From Chrysophaeum taylorii (Eukaryota; Sar; Pelagophyceae; Pelagomonadales; Pelagomonadaceae): a stretch of DNA of 64,000 nt. Each line of letters opens with the position of its first letter. The stretch's first letter is position 1. Location: NCBI GenBank assembly GCA_029834535.1, contig JAQMWT010000533.1, positions 288,787 to 352,786 of the forward strand, in the 5' to 3' direction. The notes beneath the pieces were generated by a model. That model was not told the DNA's origin and ran no database searches. It was given only the letters and a program-made list of their open reading frames with translations. A program made the position numbers and the translations under genes. Below are positions 18,097-41,769 of the stretch, in pieces.

Positions 18097-19062
18097 ATGT
18101 CGAAGCGCGAGAGGAGGAACACGACCCGGCTGACGTACGACGAACCCAAGGAGGAGAAGGGGGCTGTCGTAGGGTCGGGGACTCCTTTGGGTGAGATCGA
18201 TGAGATCAAGCTCGGTGTGACCAAGAAGAACGAGGAGGCGATCAAGGCCCTCCACCAGCTGGTGTTCAAATCAAAGGGGAAGCACGGCCAGCAAGGCCGG
18301 AACCTGAAAGCCTTCGCGGGCTTCGTCTACGGCAACGAGCCGGAAATCGAGCGGCAACGATTTTTGGATCGAGCGCTCAAGCTGAACGCGACCGTCGTCA
18401 AGGACATCATGGACGTTCTCGGGATCGAGAGAGCCCCAAAAAGTTTCGAGGAAAGCGGCGCGACCAAGGAGGCGATGTGCGAGCGACTCATCGAGTTCCT
18501 CGAGTGCCCGAAAAAGCCTGGCAAGAAGAAGACCGTGGAAAAGAAAAAAGCGACGCCCGCGACGCCCAAGAAGTCGGACGACGTGACGACGCTCCTCATG
18601 CGAGCCGTCGCCAAGCGCCAGCTCGAAAACGACAGTTCGGACGACCCCGCCGTCAAGGATCTGGTCAAGGCGGCCGAGGAGTATGTCGGCTGCAAGCTCC
18701 CAAAGGCCTTCTCTACGATCATGAAGGACATCATATCCAACGGCGAGGGCCCCCGAGACGAAGAGGACGAGGAAGAACCGGAAGAACCCCCCGCCAAGAA
18801 GCCCAAGAAGTCGCGCAAGAAGAAGGAGGAGGAGGTGCAACAGGAAGACGACGACGACGACGACGACGACGAACAAGCAGCAGCAGCAGCAGACGGGGAT
18901 GAGGACAAGATGGACGAAGACGCGAAAGACGACGACCAAGAAGAAGAAGAAGAAGATCATCAAGAAGAACAAGCAGCAGATGAAGAAGAAGAAGAAGAAG
19001 AAGAAGAAGCCGCTCCCGCCGCCAAGGACGAAGACGACGATGCTGCCAAGGAAGACGATTAA
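18097..19062 (+). CDS. DEK-like chromatin protein
   Basis: A 321-residue nuclear protein of the DEK type, which binds DNA and histones and affects chromatin topology. The N-terminal half carries the DEK signature GSGTPLGEI, KALHQLVFKSKGK, LKAFAGFVY and the SAP-like helix pair (ATKEAMCERLIEFLECP). A second helical region (DVTTLLMRAVAKRQLE...KDIISNGEG, about residues 165-210) fits a divergent DEK C-terminal domain. The tail is a very acidic low-complexity stretch with Lys-rich nuclear-localisation patches (KKPKKSRKKK). Acidic runs are encoded by GAC/GAA repeats. The ATG at 18097 follows a TTG microsatellite in the 5' UTR. A single exon. Confidence 0.85.
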   Translation: MSKRERRNTTRLTYDEPKEEKGAVVGSGTPLGEIDEIKLGVTKKNEEAIKALHQLVFKSKGKHGQQGRNLKAFAGFVYGNEPEIERQRFLDRALKLNATVVKDIMDVLGIERAPKSFEESGATKEAMCERLIEFLECPKKPGKKKTVEKKKATPATPKKSDDVTTLLMRAVAKRQLENDSSDDPAVKDLVKAAEEYVGCKLPKAFSTIMKDIISNGEGPRDEEDEEEPEEPPAKKPKKSRKKKEEEVQQEDDDDDDDDEQAAAAADGDEDKMDEDAKDDDQEEEEEDHQEEQAADEEEEEEEEEAAPAAKDEDDDAAKEDD

Positions 19063-19800: not shown

Positions 19801-21537
19801 CTACCAGTCGTCCACGTCGTCGTCGTCGTCATCTTCCTCGAGGTCTCGAACGTCGGTGCGAATGGCCGAAATTCTCGCAGCGAGAACGTCGAAGAGCGTG
19901 TTATTATGCGAGAGAGGTGACGGCATTTCGCGAGTCGAGGCGTCGCGAAGACCGGAGGCACCTTTCTTGAGCTGCGATGCGAGATCGATCGACAGCGACG
20001 GGCGTGGTTCGGGAGCTGGGGCCTTGTGCAGGCCAGAGGCGCCCGTCTTGAGCTGCGATGCGAGATCGATCGACAGCGACGGGCGTGGCTCTGGGGCCTT
20101 GTGCAGGCCAGAGGCGCCCGTCTTGAGCTGCGAGGCAAGTTCCATCGACAGCGACGGGCGTGGCTCCGGGGCCTCGTGCAGGCCAGAGGCGCCCGTCTTG
20201 AGCTGCGAGGCAAGATCCATCGGCAGCGACGGGCGGGGGTTGTCGTCGCGAGGTGGCGGTGACGGTTTACTCTCGCGTCGCGGCGGCGGCGGTGGTGGCT
20301 TCCTGTCGCGAGGAGGCGGCGGCGGTGGCTTCGGCCGCGCCGGTAATTCGTCCTTGGACGCGGGTTCAACGGCTTCTTCCTCGACCCGAGACTCGGCATT
20401 TGTGGGCTGCACCGAAGGTTCCTCCTCAGAAGGCTCGGCAGGAGGCTCGACCGAAGGCTTGGTAGCAGGAGGTTCAAAGGACGGCTTGCAAGCAGGCTCG
20501 ACCGAAGGCTTGGTAGCAGGAGGTTCAACCGACGGCTTGCCAGCAGGCTCGAGGGGTGCGGTGAGTCCCCGAAGGTTTGCCGGATCGAAGGAGGGGGCGT
20601 CCGGGTCGAGGTAGTAGAATCTGACCTGAAGCTCGCCGCGGCCCTGGGTTAGCGGGAGCCAGCCAACGTCGTAGGTTTGGTTTTTGTCGATGATGTCGTC
20701 GACGACGATGTCGAGGCCCCCAACGTTTGAGGTCATCCCCGTGAGGCTGCGCTGCTTGAGCTCGATCTTGAGGCGCGTCCCGCGCACGCGCGTCGCGAAA
20801 ACCATGCGCCGCGGCGTCATCTCGGTAACAAAGGTGCGCGCCTTGTTTCCCCGAGCCGCGAGCTTCACCTTGTCCTTGGGCGACGCCTTGTCGGGATTGT
20901 CGATTTTTTTGTCGAGAATCATCGTCCGCACCCACTCGACCCCCGCGGCCACCGTCATGCCACCGCGGGAAAACTCCGGGCTGCGCGCCGCCGCGCGCGC
21001 CCAGTCGCGCGGAGCCGACTCCGTCTTGAGCCGGAATTCGGCCCGGTGCTGGAAGATCGCCGGGGCCAGCTCCTTCGCGTAGGCCTTGGCGTCGAACGAG
21101 AGGGTGCGCGCGATGAGCTGTAACTCCGCCGCGGGGTCCTCGTCGAGGTTCCGCGCTCCGAACACCGTCACCTCGAGTTGCGGCCCACCCCCGCACCGGC
21201 TTCCCCACGATGCCCGCTCGCATTCCGCCTCCAACTGTTCTTGCCTCGCGACGAACGCGGGAACACCACGGATCTCGCGAAACGGCCGCGCCTCCGCGAC
21301 GCCCACGTTTGGCGCGCAAAGCAGCTGCGTCAGCACCCTTCGCATCCCCTCGACGATGAGTTCGTGCTTGACCGCGCCGCGGTCGAACAAATACCCACCC
21401 CCGCCAACCCACGACGCAACGTACGCCTCGAACGCACTGCTCCCGTCTTCCTCGAACGTCATCTGCCCCTCGACCTCGATGAACCGCCCCACCACGTCGC
21501 CGGCCTTGAGGTGCGACGCGAACAGCTTCGTCGCCAT
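19801..21537 (-). CDS. C2-domain, proline-rich, 4xWH2, acidic-Trp protein: candidate Arp2/3 nucleation-promoting factor
   Basis: A 578-residue protein. The start at 21537 (MATKLFASHL) is preferred over frames running further upstream that lack similarity. Residues about 119-310 open and close like a C2 domain (LEVTVFGARNL ... GELQVRFYYLD), with a long insert. A P/E-rich linker with KPSVEPPAT repeats leads to two polyproline runs (about 398-426). Four tandem units of 25-27 residues follow (about 431-532), each with LASQLKTGASGLHKAP, close to the WH2 consensus L..I..G..L. The end has an amphipathic helix (LFDVLAARISAIR) and an acidic tail finishing DDDDVDDW. Polyproline, WH2, connector and acidic-Trp in that order are the VCA layout of WASP/SCAR/WASH proteins that bind actin and Arp2/3. 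The C2-like N-terminus replaces WH1/SHD domains and suggests membrane recruitment. No known family matches the whole. Confidence 0.7.
   Translation of the reverse strand: MATKLFASHLKAGDVVGRFIEVEGQMTFEEDGSSAFEAYVASWVGGGGYLFDRGAVKHELIVEGMRRVLTQLLCAPNVGVAEARPFREIRGVPAFVARQEQLEAECERASWGSRCGGGPQLEVTVFGARNLDEDPAAELQLIARTLSFDAKAYAKELAPAIFQHRAEFRLKTESAPRDWARAAARSPEFSRGGMTVAAGVEWVRTMILDKKIDNPDKASPKDKVKLAARGNKARTFVTEMTPRRMVFATRVRGTRLKIELKQRSLTGMTSNVGGLDIVVDDIIDKNQTYDVGWLPLTQGRGELQVRFYYLDPDAPSFDPANLRGLTAPLEPAGKPSVEPPATKPSVEPACKPSFEPPATKPSVEPPAEPSEEEPSVQPTNAESRVEEEAVEPASKDELPARPKPPPPPPRDRKPPPPPPRRESKPSPPPRDDNPRPSLPMDLASQLKTGASGLHEAPEPRPSLSMELASQLKTGASGLHKAPEPRPSLSIDLASQLKTGASGLHKAPAPEPRPSLSIDLASQLKKGASGLRDASTREMPSPLSHNNTLFDVLAARISAIRTDVRDLEEDDDDDDVDDW
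19967..20230. repeat. Tandem repeats encoding the four WH2-like units
   Basis: Four in-frame units with start-to-start spacings of 81, 75 and 75 bp, sharing cores such as CTTGAGCTGCGAGGCAAG. The near identity at the nucleotide level shows recent duplication of an actin-binding motif. Confidence 0.85.
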
Positions 21538-21776
21538 GCCTCTTCCGTTTCGTGACCGTTTGGTCAACGGACCTTCACCGCGCGCCTTTGGAGAGTGAAT
21601 TATTTTTAGCAGGCAGCTAGCTGACTGTCTAAACGAACGAGTGTGAGTGTGATACGTTTTTCGGAGTCCTTCGGACATGATCGTTATTCTCGCCGAAGAA
21701 GAAACCGATACGACACACAGAGCAGGATGATAAGCGCGACAACCAACACCCTCGAAATCAAACGACGACAAAGGAG

Positions 21777-22148: not shown

Positions 22149-23035
22149 CCAATCGTCTCCTGTCCCAACTTCGTCACTGTATTCTTAGTGTACGTCTGCT
22201 GTCATCCACACTGGCCGTTTCAGGACCATCGCTACCTACACCGCAAGCAAAACACATCCGGACGTCATCGCCGACGATGTCGTTGTGACCGCCACCAGGA
22301 CCAATGTCAACGAAATACCGAGCTCGAGCCGCCATAAGACACCGCCAACAGCATATCTCGTGCGATGCAGCCGGTCGCCGCCGGTGCCACGCCATCTGTA
22401 CGGACTGCGTGACTATCTTCAGCTCGCTCCACACGAACCTTCCGCGAAAAAGGAACATACAATCTCCACTCCACGCTTGAGCATTTCGAATCCACCGAAA
22501 CGACTGGATCGAGGACATATTATATGCGTAGTCACGTCCGACCCGTTCTCGCGCCCAAGTACACCTCGAATTTGCGATTCTGTGCGACCAATGCCGTATT
22601 AAAAAAGACAACTACGCCAAGTTTGCTGCGACTCGTAGCATGGATTTCCGCACCTATAGATGCCTCACCATTCGCCCTCGCGTGCAACACCAAACATTGA
22701 GTCGAACTTTAAACCGATTCTTGACCACCGGCTAATACGTGCTGGACCACTAGACGCCGTACGCCGAAGTAAACGCGCTGGATGACTCCGCTCCTGAGCC
22801 CACCACACTGACCGCCATCGCGAATCCTCTGGGGTATGAAAGTCGTGCCTGGCATTGCGTCGTCGTCTAGAATCACGCAAACCGCACTACACCGGTACTA
22901 CTCGTGAGAATCGTCACAGATCCAATCCAACTCTCTCTGCCACATTGAAAATCACCGAAATCCCACCATCATGTCACCGTCTGCTCATTATAACTCGCTG
23001 TGCCTGCTGTCTTACCCAGGAGCCTGTTGGTCGTA
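22149..23035. other. Region with stop-broken coding-like patches
   Basis: No intact gene. On the plus strand a patch near 22560-22670 reads like protein (FAILCDQCRIKKDNYAKF) but is bracketed by stops. Composition and position next to element copy C suggest decayed mobile DNA; no family could be named. Confidence 0.4.
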
Positions 23036-23865
23036 CCGTACTCCCTGATTTCCAGCGATTAACCATTATCTACCGCGACGTACTCCACCATATCGTCAAC
23101 CCTCCGCGAGGGCACCTGACCTTTGTCTTCAGCATCTGCACCGACGCTGTCGCTCCTGCCGTCCGCTCGCAACGCTACGGCAGGTACCGTGGTAACCTCG
23201 CGTACCGCCGCGTCGTACCCAACGTCTTCGTCACGCTCGGTCGTGAGAACATCTACGACGTCAAGATGCTCGCCAATTGCACGAGGTATACGGCCGGAGC
23301 CCTCCACGCCACCAATCCCTCCTCTGTCGATAAGCGTGCTGCGGATGTCCGTGGTGACTACGTTAGCCGCGCTCGCGAAAAAATCGGACGATCCGAGGCG
23401 GAGCTGGCCCACCGCTGTGCCTTAACTGACGCTGTCGCAGCTGCGGTGGGCCCGCGCCCGCTCGGCGACCCGGGTTGCGCAGATGCGTGCGAGCTCGTGG
23501 CATGCCTTTCTGGCTTCGCCAAAGGCCCCGACGCGCCGTTGACGCCGAAGACGAGCCATCGTCGGCGCCGTAGCCGCCTGAAGTGTGCTCGATGGTGCGC
23601 AAGAGAAGACCAAGTGTCGCGGGGGTGTGAGACGTCGTCAATGTCGCATCCTAGTGGGACATAGCAGCAGCATTAGGCCGGTCTCCTTGCGCTCTCACCG
23701 TCCTTGGCCACGTCGCCGCATCAGAAAGCACAACAACCCAGGCTGCCCGCGCCCAGCAGGACGTCACAATCGAACGCACGTGCGCCTGGCGGCAGGACAC
23801 GCGGCCTGGCCTTCCCCTCTCGTTGCCTACCATCCCGCTAGGCGGTGACTCTGCCAAGTCCCATC
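23036..23865 (+). mobile_element. Endonuclease-like retroelement module, copy C, with internal inversion
   Basis: Plus-strand frame 23036-23400 aligns with the element frame at 37221-38393: YGRYRGNLAYRRVVPN, then 12 residues, then YDVKML, then KRAADVRGDYVSRARE. The next module (GAFGEARKACHEL, partner of GAFGEASAACHAL) is on the minus strand at about 23422-23613. The remaining C-terminus returns to the plus strand from about 23650 (WDIAAALGRSPCALT, then QAARAQQDVT). About 200 bp inside the copy are therefore inverted. The PD of the nuclease-like motif is PN here, while the DVK is intact. Confidence 0.75.
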
Positions 23866-25334: not shown

Positions 25335-28151
25335 TTAGCCTGTGACAGCGAGTTCGATATCGGAGGTGCCGCGCGGCTCCGAGGCCGAGCGCGTCTGGCG
25401 CGTTGCGTACATATGAAGGAGGCGTTCAACATCATCGTTTTGGTCGTGGGCAGTGTAGGAGCCGGCGCTGCGGAAGGAGGCGGTGACAGGGTGGAGCGGA
25501 TCGTCGTCATCCTCGCGGTCGATCGCGTCGAGGATGGCGGATTTCCAGGTCGCGGGCGCGCGGGCATCGTCGAAAGTAAACGCAACGACGTGCGAGGGGG
25601 TAAAGCACTCGAGGTCCGAGTCGCGCGCATCGATGCGGAGGATGGTGGAGAGGTGAACGCGACCGAGCGGCGAGAAGGCGTTCTCGACGTCGAGCGCGAT
25701 TGCCACCGGCTTCTCCAGAGACCTGGCGGCCTTGGCGACGACTTCGCCCGTGGCGACGTTCACCTCTGACAAATTTCCATCGAGGTCGTACCACACGAGC
25801 TGGTCGCGCGTCAGGAGCAGCTTGACTTTGTGCGGGACGAAACTCGCCGGTTGTTCGTCTTCTTGGTCGGGGTACTTGGTGAAGCCTATCATGGTGGCAG
25901 CCTTGGCAAACAGCCCGGCGCGGCGGCGGCTGTTGGACGGGAGAGCCACGGCGGCCAGGAGGACGTAATTGAAGTAAAGCGTGTCTTCGAGCTCCTCGGC
26001 CCTGGTCGAGGTGACGTGCCCTTCGAGTCTCTGGGCCCGCGTCGCAATTGCCGTCGCCGCCCCGCCCGCTCTCTCGTCCTCCGCGTCGGTCGCCTCCTTG
26101 ACTTCGGCGTTTGGGTCCTTGACGAGGAGGTTTTCGAGCGCCCGGCGCAGCGCGACCTCGGCGAGGCGGTCGGGGTCCTCGGCGGTGGTGGTGGTGGCTC
26201 CACCGTCGCCTACATCGCGGAGCGACGCGCGGACGAGCTGCTGAACGCGGTGTTCGACCGCCGCGACTTGCGGCTCTTCTTCTTCTTCTTCGAGTCCGCC
26301 GCCGAGCTCGTGTTCGATGGGCGCGAGATAGAATTGAAGCCACGATGGCTGCTGCTGCTTCTCGCCGGTGACGAAGGACGGCACGCGGGCGAGCTTTGGT
26401 CCGCCGCCCGTCGGAAGCGAGAACGAGATCGCCGCCTGCTGGTCGCTCGCGTGGTTGATAAGAGACATCGACGACGTCGAGCGCGAGAAATGCTTGGTGT
26501 CGTGGCGGAGCAGCTCGTCGGCCGAGAAACGAAGATGGTGAAAGCGGGGCGAGACGAGCTCGTTGTACCACGCCGTGTTCAAGATGCGCAGCACTATCAG
26601 AGCCGAGAGCGCGTGGAGGAGGCGGTGGGGCGAGGTCGGCCGGAGAACAAAGCTGGCTACGTTGCAGCCGACGGTCCCCAGAACCAGAGCGAGGTCGAGG
26701 CGGCGCGTCGTGCTGTCGAAGCGCTTCCAGAGTCGAACGGAAGCCTCGACGACGAACGCCGCGCCCAAAGCGATCTCTGCGTCGCGGATCGAGGAGACGT
26801 TAATCTTTAGGACGCTGCGCCCCCCCGGCTCGTCCAAGGTGATCGCCACCAAAAACACGTAGAGTACGACGGCCAACGCGGATATCGTGGAAATGCCCGC
26901 ATCCTCGACAGTCTCGCGAAACGATTGGTGGACCTTGTCGAGCCGCGACGGCTGGTGTTGTAACGAAGGCCTCTTCTTCGTCGTCTTCTTGTCGTTGGGC
27001 CGGTCGCGCGCAGAAGCCTCGAATTCGCCGCGTTGTTGTTGTTTCCGAACCACGGCGGCTACGCGCCGCGGGTCGCTCATTTCTCCAACGTGCGTGATGA
27101 GGGTGAAGCGGGGCAAGATCTTGGGAAGAAGATAAAGCAACGCGACGACGCCGACGACGAGCAGGGTAAGGGGCGTCGCGAGGTCGTCCAACTTTTTCAC
27201 CTTGTAGATCAGCAGGGCGATCCCAGACGACAACGAGAACAAGCACACTTCCAACAGCGTCACGACGAGACCGGGATTTCCAAACCAAAAGAGCGTCCTC
27301 TGAGATTCTTTCTTGTTGTGCAGAATTTCAGAGTGGAGCAAATACCAGTATATCCACTTGACTTTCAAAAATATCAGGAGAGCCAGGCCAACCACGACCG
27401 ACCCGAGGACCGTCAAGGAGGTCGACAGCTTCGGGGGGCTGAACAACGTGGAAATGTAGAGCTGGATGAGCAATCCGAGAATGCCCACGAACCATACCGT
27501 GTCGCGAATTTCAGAAAATTCCAAACAAACGTGTTGCATGCACGACTCCAAGTAGGTCGCAAAGCTGAAGTTGTGCGGGAGGTGGTGCGAACGGAGAAAG
27601 TCTCGGCGTACTTCGTGGAACGTCATGTGCTCGAGACAGTGCTGGTATTCCAGCCACGCCCACGGGTGACGCACGAGGCCTCTCATCCAAAAACTCCCGA
27701 AAAGCAAGTGGTGGCTCAACGCGGGGATTTGCAGCTTGTCCCGGAGCCGGTGGAGACGCGCAGTCATACCCCAGTGGTCCTGCATGTCAGCAGCTTCGTA
27801 CTCGCGCCACAAGCGCCCGACGTGCCGCGCGAGCGCGTACAGAGCCACGTTGACGACGACGTAAAACAGCGCCACCGTGAACAGTGCGAAGTGGACTTCG
27901 TGAAACACTTGATACCACTCGCCTTTGGCCTGCACTGTCTCCAGGATAAACAAGCCAAACGCGATGAGTCCGAGGACTGATAACTCTCGCTCAGAAGCTT
28001 CTAAGATGTCATTTGCGTGCTTTTGGGCCTCGGACCACCGCTTTAGCTTCCGCGCCAACATCTGCAAGATCATCACGCCCGTGATCACCAGCACCGCCGT
28101 CACCGTGAGCGCGAGGTCGTGGTGCGGCCCGTTCTTGCTCTTCTTCGCCAT
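25335..28151 (-). CDS. MLO-family membrane protein with voltage-sensor-like bundle and PH-like domain
   Basis: A 938-residue protein from the ATG at 28151. Residues 1-360 match MLO proteins, plant and algal seven-helix membrane proteins linked to calcium signalling: helix 1 at 12-32, a conserved loop with FGSFWMRGLVRHPWAW, LRSHHLPHNFSFATYLE, FSEIRDTVWFVGILGLLIQL, TLFWFGNPGLVV and LITHVGEMSD. Residues about 417-530 contain a second set of four hydrophobic helices with charged positions (LVLGTVGC..., LIVLRILNTAW), which resembles an S1-S4 bundle. Residues about 772-880 (HKVKLLLTRDQLVWYDLDGN ... APATWKSAILDAI) look like a PH domain. The MLO part is confident; the other two domains are inferred from pattern. 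Plant MLOs end soon after a calmodulin-binding site, so this C-terminal extension of almost 580 residues is unusual. No introns are seen. Confidence 0.8.
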   Translation of the reverse strand: MAKKSKNGPHHDLALTVTAVLVITGVMILQMLARKLKRWSEAQKHANDILEASERELSVLGLIAFGLFILETVQAKGEWYQVFHEVHFALFTVALFYVVVNVALYALARHVGRLWREYEAADMQDHWGMTARLHRLRDKLQIPALSHHLLFGSFWMRGLVRHPWAWLEYQHCLEHMTFHEVRRDFLRSHHLPHNFSFATYLESCMQHVCLEFSEIRDTVWFVGILGLLIQLYISTLFSPPKLSTSLTVLGSVVVGLALLIFLKVKWIYWYLLHSEILHNKKESQRTLFWFGNPGLVVTLLEVCLFSLSSGIALLIYKVKKLDDLATPLTLLVVGVVALLYLLPKILPRFTLITHVGEMSDPRRVAAVVRKQQQRGEFEASARDRPNDKKTTKKRPSLQHQPSRLDKVHQSFRETVEDAGISTISALAVVLYVFLVAITLDEPGGRSVLKINVSSIRDAEIALGAAFVVEASVRLWKRFDSTTRRLDLALVLGTVGCNVASFVLRPTSPHRLLHALSALIVLRILNTAWYNELVSPRFHHLRFSADELLRHDTKHFSRSTSSMSLINHASDQQAAISFSLPTGGGPKLARVPSFVTGEKQQQPSWLQFYLAPIEHELGGGLEEEEEEPQVAAVEHRVQQLVRASLRDVGDGGATTTTAEDPDRLAEVALRRALENLLVKDPNAEVKEATDAEDERAGGAATAIATRAQRLEGHVTSTRAEELEDTLYFNYVLLAAVALPSNSRRRAGLFAKAATMIGFTKYPDQEDEQPASFVPHKVKLLLTRDQLVWYDLDGNLSEVNVATGEVVAKAARSLEKPVAIALDVENAFSPLGRVHLSTILRIDARDSDLECFTPSHVVAFTFDDARAPATWKSAILDAIDREDDDDPLHPVTASFRSAGSYTAHDQNDDVERLLHMYATRQTRSASEPRGTSDIELAVTG

Positions 28152-37220: not shown

Positions 37221-38475
37221 CTAGTCGGGGTCATCGCCGAGGCGTGGGGCAGGCGAAGAGAGGACGGGCCCCGCCCGTAGGTCGTACGCATGCTGCCGCC
37301 GGACGTATGTGCGACGAAGGGTGACGTCCTGCTGGGATCGGGCGGCCTGGGCGGGGTTCCCCGAGGCGGCGACATGGGTGAGGGCGGTGAGGGCACAGCG
37401 AGCCCGGCCTAATGCGTTGGCGATCCCCCACTCACGGTAGATGCGGCGAGTTTGGGCCGCCTTTGCCTCTGTGAAGTTGGCGCAGCCGCTTGTCACCCAG
37501 GTTCGCGCAGCGATGCGCTCTGCGCATGTTTGGGCGAGAGCGTGGCACGCCGCGCTGGCCTCACCGAAGGCACCAAAGACGAGGCCGGCGACGGTGCCGT
37601 AGCTACGTAGCCGCTGTTCGACAGGGCCCAAGAAGCCAGGCGGTGGTGCTGTACCCGGCTGGGGGATGATGGCGTCGATGCCGCGGGCGTGAGCGAGGTA
37701 TTCGGAGTGGACTTGCGCTGCGCGCCGATTGACAGGCGACGGGTGGGAGGGATGGAGGGCGTGGACGGTGTACCACGAACCCCAAGCGAGGGTTTGGATG
37801 TCGTAGAGTTGCTCCTTGTTGTCGAGCGTGGTGAGGATGTCTGGAACGACTTGACGTCGGGCGAGATTGCCTCGGTACCGGCCGTAGAGGCGCGTGCGAA
37901 TGGTAGGGGCGACGACGTCAGCAAAGATGCCGAAAACCTCGGACAGGGCTGGGATGCCGGCCTCTTTGACGCTGCCGTGGACGCAGTCGAGCTGGCCGTC
38001 ATGCCAGGTGGTCCGCGCTCCTCCGCGGTTGACAAGGTTGGCCTGCGTGAGAAGCACCTTGCCGTGAGCGTCGAGAACGACGTCAGTGCCCAGAATGCGA
38101 GTGCCCACGAGGCCCAAACAAGCTGGAGAGGGGTAGCCAAAGTACTGGGCACACATCTCAGCCCAGCAGCGGTTAGGGATTTGAAGGCCAGAGCTGGGCC
38201 ACGAGCTGATGAACGTGGTCGAGAAGCGATCCCGTGAGGACGCCGCTACTCGAAGTGCTTCGGTGATGGGAAGGGTGGCCGCAAGGCGCTGGAGTGCAGT
38301 GGCCCGAGCTGTCTCGCGCTGGGAGGTTAGAGCACGCTGGAGTTGGGGTATGAGCACGGGTGTCGAGATGGTGGGGTCGACGAGGACGCCCATGGAGACG
38401 AATTCGTGGGAGAGAGGACCGTCGACGAGATGAACGTTGGCGGGGTCGCCGGAACCAGCGCCGCCGTGGGACTGT
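37221..38475 (-). mobile_element. Endonuclease-like retroelement frame, longest copy (copy B)
   Basis: An open frame of 390 codons from an ATG at 38393, extending upstream without a stop to about 38470. Landmarks: a helical N-terminal region, WPSSGLQIPNRCW, a His-containing TTWHDGQLDCVHGSVKEAG, RYRGNLARRQVVPDIL, then YDIQTL, and C-terminal VFGAFGEASAACHAL and YREWGIANALGRARCAL. Such a His-rich segment followed by RRPD...D.K and a GAFGE helix occurs at the C-terminal end of non-LTR-type reverse transcriptases in algal and oomycete genomes. I infer a PD-(D/E)xK-like endonuclease module. The polymerase domain is missing, and the position expected to be Lys is Gln, so this copy is probably inactive. 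Two flanking direct repeats enclose it. Confidence 0.65.
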
Positions 38476-39708: not shown

Positions 39709-41769
39709 ATGCGGGCGAAAATGCTTTCGTCAGTTCGTATGTCGACGTTGCGCATGAAAACAAAACTTCAGAGCAGTCACCTCGGGAGTCGTGTCGAGGA
39801 GATGCTGCGCGAGCTGTCGGACGACTCAGCGGGGTCTGGGAAAGACGACGATGGGACCGAGGAGGCTGCCGCAGATTGGTTCGCGGCAATTCTCGAGTGT
39901 TGGGAAGCGCGCGAGGTCAAGGGTGTCGTACAACAGATGGTGGCGGAGAGTTTCCGGCGAGACGTCGAGACACGTTTGGTGCGGGACGTCCTGAAACTCG
40001 CGTTCACGTGCTTCGTTGGAAGACGACGGAACGGTGCCTTGGGCGTGGTGCGCATGATCCAGGTCTACGACGCCGTCGCCGACGTGCTCTCGAGAGACTC
40101 GCGAGCGGAGCCCGACGCGATCGACCACGTGCTGTGGCTCGCGGCTGACCGGAACATGAACGCGCTGCTGCGACTGAAAGGTTCCAAAGACATCTCGAGG
40201 CACGAGATGATCGTGGAGAAACTCGCAAGTACGAGAATATTCAGGACGATGATCGAGGCGAGGTGGGTAGAGGGGCCTCGAGCCATATTCTTTTTCGAGG
40301 CTATCTTGTACGTATTCCTCGGCCTCAGCTACTCGATGCTCGTGCTAGCGCGACGCGAAGGCAGCGAACCGGCCTACAGCGCCGCTGGCAACGCCTTGAG
40401 GACCATCTTTGGCCTCCCGAGCCTGCATTATTTTTCGGTCAAGCTCGACATAACGCTGCGATTTCACGCTAAGTTCGAGCTCGGGATGCGAGCCAAAGAA
40501 AACCACGAGGCGAGGCGATGCGCGCCACTCGGCCGCGTTCTATCCCCCGCGGCGAGCGCCCTCTCGTTGTGCTGGGGCTGCGTGACCTGGGTCTGGCACC
40601 GCACGGCGGGGCTCGTCGGTCTCGTTTTGTACGGCTTGCCGCTCTACGTCGTCTTGTTGTGCGGTCCCGCGTCGTGGCGCGACCTGAGCCGTCGATCGTG
40701 CCAGGTCTTTGTCGAGAATTTCGGGCCCTGGTTCCTGACGCCCCCGCAAATGTCACACTATTCCTTGATTCCCCCGTGGGCGTGGGCTAAAGATCCGTTG
40801 AACGCGATCGAGCTCGCGTATCTGTTTACCTGTTGGGTCGCTATGCTGGGGGTGTCGTTTCCCGGGCTCGTCCAAGAAGGACCACTCTGGGGTCAAACAA
40901 CCTACGACCACATTCTCAATTTGGGGATTCTTCTCATGTGGTTGCGCTCGTTGAACTACCTGAGGGCCCACGTCGAATTCGCCGCGTTCGTTACGCTCTT
41001 CACCTCAAAGATATTCTCGGACATGAAGTCATTCCTGGTCGTCTTCTTCATCATCTTCTTTGCATTTTGCCACACAATATACATGACGGTAGGCTACGAA
41101 GACCCGGAGTACTTTGGCCAGGACGAACAATCAAACGACGGTCATATGTTTTCGAACCTCTTTAGTACGTCTTGGATTTTGTACCTCTTCGCGCTGACGG
41201 GCGAAGTCGACGACACGTCTGAGTCTAGCGTAGTTGACAAGCTCCTCTTGGGCACCGCTCTCTTTGTCTTTGTGGTCGTCTTGCTCAATTTGCTTATCGC
41301 GATCGTCGCCGAAGCCCACCAGGACGCCATGGCTAGATCCTCCGATCTGTTTTGGCGATCTAGATTCGACATCGTATCGGAAACAATCGCGCTCTGGGGG
41401 AACGCCTCCAAATTCCACACTATCGACCGCGATTCTATTGGTGCTATTCTCCAGAATCAGCTCAAAGAGGCACTCGAGTACACGCTCACCGGTGGTGCCT
41501 CGCATCGCCAACAGCTTCAGCGCATCCTCCAGGCCATACAGGCCGAAAAGTCGCCCATCATCGCGATGCAAGACAAGCTCGACGCTCTTCAGGCCCAACT
41601 CGCCCAACTTCTTGCCTACCACCACCACCACCAGCGCGACTCTCCAGGCCACTACCACCACCACCACCACGACCACCACCAAGAGAGTGGTGGTTATGGT
41701 GTTGATCATGCCGGTGGCGAAGAAGAAGGTGGAGGTGGAGGAGAGGACCCTCCCCCGCCGTATGAGTAG
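39709..41769 (+). CDS. TRP/polycystin-like cation channel
   Basis: A 686-residue membrane protein. A soluble helical N-terminus (1-190) is followed by six hydrophobic segments (about 192-213, 290-320, 364-384, 400-420, 444-465 and 512-535). The region between the last two has the look of a pore loop (FSTSWILYLFALTGEVDD), and the last helix ends LLNLLIAIVAEAH, the hallmark end of S6 in TRP-type channels (LLNLLIAMM.. in animals). The C-terminal tail has a coiled-coil-like stretch, a His cluster (about 18 His in 30 residues) from CAC repeats, Gly-rich acidic sequence and a terminal PPPPYE, a PPxY motif that could bind WW-domain ubiquitin ligases. TRPV-like ankyrin repeats are not evident. Ion selectivity and gating cannot be read from the sequence. 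ATG codons at 39709 and 39721 are both possible starts. Confidence 0.8.
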   Translation: MRAKMLSSVRMSTLRMKTKLQSSHLGSRVEEMLRELSDDSAGSGKDDDGTEEAAADWFAAILECWEAREVKGVVQQMVAESFRRDVETRLVRDVLKLAFTCFVGRRRNGALGVVRMIQVYDAVADVLSRDSRAEPDAIDHVLWLAADRNMNALLRLKGSKDISRHEMIVEKLASTRIFRTMIEARWVEGPRAIFFFEAILYVFLGLSYSMLVLARREGSEPAYSAAGNALRTIFGLPSLHYFSVKLDITLRFHAKFELGMRAKENHEARRCAPLGRVLSPAASALSLCWGCVTWVWHRTAGLVGLVLYGLPLYVVLLCGPASWRDLSRRSCQVFVENFGPWFLTPPQMSHYSLIPPWAWAKDPLNAIELAYLFTCWVAMLGVSFPGLVQEGPLWGQTTYDHILNLGILLMWLRSLNYLRAHVEFAAFVTLFTSKIFSDMKSFLVVFFIIFFAFCHTIYMTVGYEDPEYFGQDEQSNDGHMFSNLFSTSWILYLFALTGEVDDTSESSVVDKLLLGTALFVFVVVLLNLLIAIVAEAHQDAMARSSDLFWRSRFDIVSETIALWGNASKFHTIDRDSIGAILQNQLKEALEYTLTGGASHRQQLQRILQAIQAEKSPIIAMQDKLDALQAQLAQLLAYHHHHQRDSPGHYHHHHHDHHQESGGYGVDHAGGEEEGGGGGEDPPPPYE

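Follow-up and report, generated by a model that had tools for sequence, protein, structure and literature searches.

Proteins of the WASP family (WASP, WAVE, WASH, WHAMM, WAWH, and WAML) share a C-terminal order of parts in which a polyproline region is followed by WH2 units, a connector, and an acidic segment with a tryptophan. In the sections of the 2012 survey of the family that are used here (PMC3298513), its members carry one or two WH2 units, with a disputed third in some WHAMM proteins, and WAML of Entamoeba is described as a fusion of an IMD domain with a VCA tail. According to the same sections, algae and stramenopiles lost WASP and retained a single WASH or WAVE, whereas WASP was the sole member present in the haptophyte Emiliania.

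A gene in the 64,000-nucleotide stretch of Chrysophaeum taylorii DNA analyzed here (the window) encodes a protein with the same C-terminal order, which differs from the family in having four WH2-like units with LHKA-type ends rather than one or two and in having a C2-like front, with no WH1, WHD, WAHD, IMD, or GBD recognized. The pairing of a C2-like front with a VCA-like tail was not found in the searches made, and the nearest published idea, within the cited sections of the survey, is WAML. Both proteins join a membrane (or membrane-like) domain directly to a VCA (or VCA-like) tail; the membrane module is an IMD in WAML and C2-like here, and the host lineages differ. In searches of open-access papers on C2 domains together with WH2, the titles pointed to no protein of this build; they concern SPIRE, Rab27a, intersectin, PCARE, Diaph3, and a Wolbachia protein, each paper mentioning the C2 domain once or twice, and a search worded for phosphoinositides and protists returned only a paper on an I-BAR protein.

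The gene, its host, and the order of its parts

The open reading frame at 19801-21537 on the minus strand has 578 codons (578 amino acids) and, alone among the six possible frames of this interval, is free of internal stops. Its codon usage is also the best fit among the six, judged against 12 other open reading frames of the window that were chosen by us. The start codon may be either the ATG at 21537 or one at 21678, since a second in-frame ATG lies upstream at the latter position and would give a protein of 625 residues (47 more). The parts of the gene are as follows.

19801-21537, minus strand: whole open reading frame, 578 amino acids (stop counts and codon usage of the six frames)
21190-21537, minus strand: amino acids 1-116, N-terminal region with no recognized fold (no Pfam match up to an E value of 10)
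21139-21189, minus strand: amino acids 117-133, proposed C2 strand 1, PQLEVTVFGARNL (register with 21 C2 domains of the same genome; C2 HMM)
20875-21138, minus strand: amino acids 134-221, insert separating the first two proposed C2 strands (gap in the 21 C2 domains; borders set by us, length about 80-88 residues)
20533-20874, minus strand: amino acids 222-335, remainder of the C2-like beta-sandwich (profile-profile score 24.4; low-confidence seven-strand model)
20353-20532, minus strand: amino acids 336-395, linker rich in Pro, Glu, and Ser that includes short tandem repeats (KPSVEPP; repeat periods 27 and 51)
20236-20352, minus strand: amino acids 396-434, polyproline region, PPPPPP twice and PPP once (from the sequence)
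20161-20235, minus strand: WH2-like unit 1, LHEA variant (0 of 200 shuffles as high)
20086-20160, minus strand: WH2-like unit 2, LHKA (1 of 200 shuffles as high)
20005-20085, minus strand: WH2-like unit 3, LHKA (0 of 200 shuffles as high)
19924-20004, minus strand: WH2-like unit 4, LRDA variant (4 of 200 shuffles as high; end placed from the preceding spacing)
19849-19899, minus strand: amino acids 547-563, proposed C-region helix, TLFDVLAARISAIRTDV (ungapped N-WASP match equaled by 36 of 3000 shuffles; HMM test negative)
19804-19842, minus strand: amino acids 566-578, acidic tail, LEEDDDDDDVDDW (sequence and genome pattern search)

A plus-strand open reading frame (18097-19062; no Pfam match at E values up to 0.001) adjoins the gene tail to tail, and another plus-strand frame, at 22855-23664, lies upstream of it. 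The latter shares by eye a similar stretch, R.YGRYRGNLA.R.VVP, with the minus-strand frame at 37221-38393, which had no Pfam match at E values up to 0.001; the two are perhaps remnants of one mobile element. Elsewhere in the window are genes for an Mlo-family membrane protein (25335-28151, minus strand) and an ion-channel or polycystin-like protein (39709-41769, plus strand).

The host is photosynthetic, with 84 matches to light-harvesting proteins in its genome, in agreement with the algal origin supposed by the first-pass annotation. The genome encodes all of the Arp2/3 subunits that were searched for, ARPC2, ARPC3, and ARPC4, with ARPC2 matched strongly on contig C157 and again, at a second locus, on C105. 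The two ARPC2-like loci (L007 and L008/L009) are separate, the second being matched in two pieces.

Other candidate members of the WASP family are present in the same genome. Two paralogues lying about 4.5 kb apart (L001 and L015, G000:C670) each combine a pair of WH2-like units with an acidic Trp tail, and we take them to be WAVE-like from these WH2-acidic tails and from what we presume to be the conserved start of that family. Residues 268-348 of L001 match Pfam CCDC53, a family of WASH-complex subunits, above its cut-off (E = 3e-14). A third protein (L018, G000:C443) is WASH, matching Pfam WASH_WAHD with an E value of 2e-33. Its WH2-C-acidic segment is followed downstream by a second acidic Trp segment, a layout reminiscent of the tandem VCA reported for stramenopile WASH in the cited part of PMC3298513. 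These three proteins, like that of the window, combine polyproline with a VCA-type tail, but their WH2 units are nearer to canonical and their front regions are their own; none of the three was retrieved when the genome was searched with the window protein. A further frame (L061, G000:C47, from about 112947; 1,897 amino acids) holds 14 tandem WH2-pattern motifs, an unusually large number, mostly LMAQIARGRKLKK, within Ala/Pro linkers; its start is PDZ-like by eye and is followed by a long charged region, and its final residues look frame-shifted. No second copy or homologue of the window protein was found in its own genome, in viral contigs, or in prokaryote genomes, and the five PDB matches to the whole protein included no actin regulator.

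The C2-like front

The first-pass annotation had seen a C2-like fold with an insert at the front of the protein and none of the modules that occupy this place in known nucleation-promoting factors. On the second of these claims, Pfam scans of the protein and of its parts found no WH1, WHD, WAHD, IMD, or GBD. These scans do not establish the absence of a WHD, because the WAVE-like L001 is also without a Pfam WHD match. A genome-wide search for WH1, made without a positive control, found nothing.

Residues 1-334 had no Pfam match, C2 included, at E values up to 10 and a single PDB match at chance level (E = 1.5). Comparison was made with a profile of 111 positions built from the 30 best-scoring of the 141 C2 places in the same genome, with an alignment of 21 of those 30 (L023, L032, L034, L038, L039, L040, L044, L045, and L048 were omitted before counting). 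With the insert removed, residues 117-335 ranked first among about 2,600 sequences in a search with the C2 HMM, at an E value of only 0.27, and aligned to profile positions 2-106 of 111; without joining, residues 117-335 ranked 3rd, residues 222-335 ranked 5th, and the whole protein ranked 11th.

In profile-profile comparison, residues 222-335 scored 24.4, a value that does not depend on the borders that we set for the insert; none of 200 own shuffles reached it (best, 19.1), and it also exceeds the best of the decoys described below (17.3). Residues 117-335 scored 24.5 (0 of 200; best, 22.5). Removal of the insert raised the score to 32.7, which does depend on those borders; this was reached by none of 300 shuffles (best, 18.8) and none of 136 real decoys (best, 17.3), the latter being pieces of 12 open reading frames of the window chosen by us. 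The corresponding probabilities were 29% for residues 222-335, 16% for residues 117-335, and 78% with the insert removed, the values without joining thus being low. MAFFT, given no information on the insert, began the row with strand 1 (residue 117 on) and placed the remainder beyond the insert. AlphaFold models were weak (mean pLDDT of 35.2 and 57.3); one low-confidence model of the region shows seven strands, a C2 sandwich having eight, and C2 domains matched the better model no better than other beta-sandwiches did. A C2-like domain with an insert is the best reading of residues 117-335: the claim survives in the similarity to the C2 domains of the same genome, above shuffles and decoys, although Pfam is silent and the models are nonspecific. 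The region would share with C2 domains (PF00168) a common strand pattern and register, as seen in the joined sequence, and would differ from them in the insert, some 80-88 residues long, that follows strand 1 and in the replacement of the ligand Asp residues.

Calcium-binding C2 domains carry Asp at five canonical ligand columns. At these columns the window protein has P, S, Q, S, and S, compared with Asp in 21, 21, 21, 21, and 20 of the 21 aligned C2 rows. Acidic residues at 132-134 sit beside the first ligand column, and a shifted alignment could recover a single ligand there, though not the full set. The coupling to calcium signals that had first been envisaged is unlikely, because Asp is replaced at all five columns. 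Calcium-independent lipid binding is the better guess, because a basic stretch (residues 205-270; 17 K/R versus 6 D/E) overlaps the C2-like region, and we would predict it for this front.

The tail: acidic end, connector, and repeats

The tail runs in the order of polyproline, four WH2-like units, a proposed helix with an Arg, and an acidic Trp end. The polyproline region (residues 396-434) precedes the WH2-like units, as in the WASP family, and the protein ends in LEEDDDDDDVDDW followed directly by the stop codon, with Trp as the last residue; the polyproline and the acidic Trp tail had both been read correctly at the outset, with two PPPPPP runs in the former. A pattern for such an end, [DE][DE]x[DE][DE]W+TRR, had 11 matches in the 70.8-Mb genome, compared with 2 for a reversed control pattern. 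A true stop was present in 5 of the 11, and among these the window gene was the only long frame, the other four having 13, 17, 32, and 105 amino acids; the pattern misses spliced genes and other tail layouts, such as the Trp tails of the WAVE-like proteins.

The connector is less distinctive. The segment LFDVLAARISAI aligns without gaps to LMEVMQKRSKAI of N-WASP, with identical L, V, R, A, and I residues (L..V...R..AI), a match equaled by 36 of 3,000 shuffles, or by 412 of 3,000 when the best of four references is taken. Against the C-regions of the WAVE-like and WASH proteins of the same genome, the match was no better than chance (2,250, 2,095, and 867 of 3,000 shuffles as good). For two human segments, 243 (WAVE1) and 358 (WASP) of 3,000 shuffles were as good. 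An HMM of C-regions applied to the connector was equaled or exceeded by 3,846 of 5,000 shuffles, and by 1,995 of 5,000 after addition of those human segments, while a C-plus-acidic HMM placed the tail at rank 14 among about 2,600 sequences; residues 537-578 had no PDB match. The connector had been described as amphipathic, a claim that gained no support here: the hydrophobic moment is unremarkable for a segment of this composition, being reached by a fraction of 0.51 of shuffles (0.37 for the N-WASP segment itself), and the C-region HMM was negative. The likeness of the connector to the C-region of N-WASP is suggestive only, and the acidic Trp end is the more telling feature.

The protein may also be read as a membrane-tethered multi-WH2 protein of a Spire- or VASP-like kind, which would bind, sequester, nucleate, or elongate actin and whose tail would act independently of Arp2/3. 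Four tandem WH2-like units adjoining polyproline are what such a protein would have, the C-region is not significant, and the 14-motif frame in the same genome is without an acidic Trp end. We nevertheless regard this as rather unlikely, given the rarity of the terminal acidic Trp tail in the genome, for the pattern used, and its placement, which is that seen in the WASP-family proteins of PMC3298513 (section 11).

The four repeats begin at residues 435, 460, 485, and 512, with the cores DLASQLKTGASGLHEA, ELASQLKTGASGLHKA, DLASQLKTGASGLHKA, and DLASQLKKGASGLRDA in that order. They were proposed to be duplications at the nucleotide level, and this is right, because they form a tandem array in the DNA (19965-20235; period 75, 92% matches, 3% indels) in which pairs of repeats are identical at 54 to 68 of 72 nucleotides.

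Their identity as WH2 units is a matter of degree. Pfam reported no WH2 in the window protein at E values up to 10; over the repeat region it listed non-WH2 families only, all below their cut-offs, the best being Tas3_C-hel over the helix of unit 4 (E = 0.0006; 20 bits versus a cut-off of 27). A genome-wide WH2 search (E up to 10) gave four candidate places, none of them in the window. Profile-profile comparison of the repeats with a WH2 alignment gave a score of 16.9 (probability, 55.9), reached by none of 500 column shuffles, the highest of which was 15.3. The alignment comprised 12 units, from the WAVE-like L001 and L015, WASH (L018), a multi-WH2 protein (L017), and N-WASP, most of them chosen by eye in frames found with the Pfam WH2 or WASH models. 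Single units 1 to 4 scored 14.8, 15.0, 15.2, and 13.9, values that 0, 1, 0, and 4 of 200 own shuffles reached, respectively. When reference units were left out one at a time, 10 of the 12 scored 23.9-38.1, all above the window repeats, and the two near the window level, the first unit of L001 (14.8) and that of WASH (18.3), were both named WH2 by eye. A WH2 HMM placed the tail at rank 2 among about 2,600 sequences, at an E value of only 1.9 and with one own shuffle ranking higher.

Compared with the WASP-family WH2 pattern of PMC3298513 (section 11), the helix of the units fits save for Ala in place of Leu/Met at the second position, and the linker of five residues falls inside the range given there. 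The LKKV motif is altered in all four units (LHEA, LHKA, LHKA, and LRDA), units 1 and 4 having gained an acidic residue there. The positions invariant across the four units include WH2 helix residues and the Leu that follows the linker. The repeats thus appear to be WH2-like and clearly divergent, units 2 and 3 being closest to the pattern, and actin binding is predicted for them. Of the original proposal of four WH2 units, the likeness holds up by the profile-profile searches that had been suggested for both regions, in which WH2 and C2 similarity exceeded shuffles, but the repeats fall below most of the reference units.

Such divergence leaves room for a C2-like scaffold in which the repeats are a tandem expansion with no binding of actin and the acidic Trp end serves some other partner. 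Acidic peptides with a Trp can serve TPR or adaptor protein partners, and the linker of the same gene also holds tandem expansions; the altered LKKV, the silence of Pfam on WH2, and the unrelated helical family that heads the Pfam matches to the repeats (below its cut-off) would fit as well. This reading is distinctly unlikely in our view, set against the invariance of the WH2 helix residues and of the Leu after the linker and against a WH2 score that none of the 500 column shuffles attained. Very improbable is an inhibitor or decoy, in the manner of Arpin, which binds Arp2/3 by an acidic Trp tail, with a degenerate C-region that cannot activate the complex: the acidic Trp end and the weak C-region would suit it, but WH2-like units and polyproline are typical of activators, and Arpin is not known to contain a WH2.

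Proposed activity and its meaning

On balance, we think it probable that the protein is a type I (WASP-kind) nucleation-promoting factor of an alga, with a C2-like front and a predicted activity in branched actin assembly. Under this reading, the C2-like front would bind acidic membrane lipids through its basic face and without calcium, and the polyproline stretch would recruit profilin-actin or SH3 partners. The four WH2-like repeats would deliver actin monomers, and the connector, together with the acidic Trp tail, would bind Arp2/3 and activate it, such that branched actin would be assembled at the membrane. We infer each binding step, and the activation of Arp2/3, from the parts described above.

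A narrower proposal, which we make tentatively and hold to be possible rather than probable, is that the protein represents a new subclass of the WASP family in which a tail that binds actin through four units and activates Arp2/3 is predicted to be fused directly to a calcium-independent lipid-binding C2 domain. If so, lipid in the membrane could suffice to recruit the assembly of branched actin, and this would be achieved by a protein with no recognized Rho-GTPase-binding module. The window protein is a compact and directly testable case for the tying of actin branching to membranes, and, if the reading is true, algae made membrane-linked Arp2/3 activators of their own, in parallel to WAML in Entamoeba.
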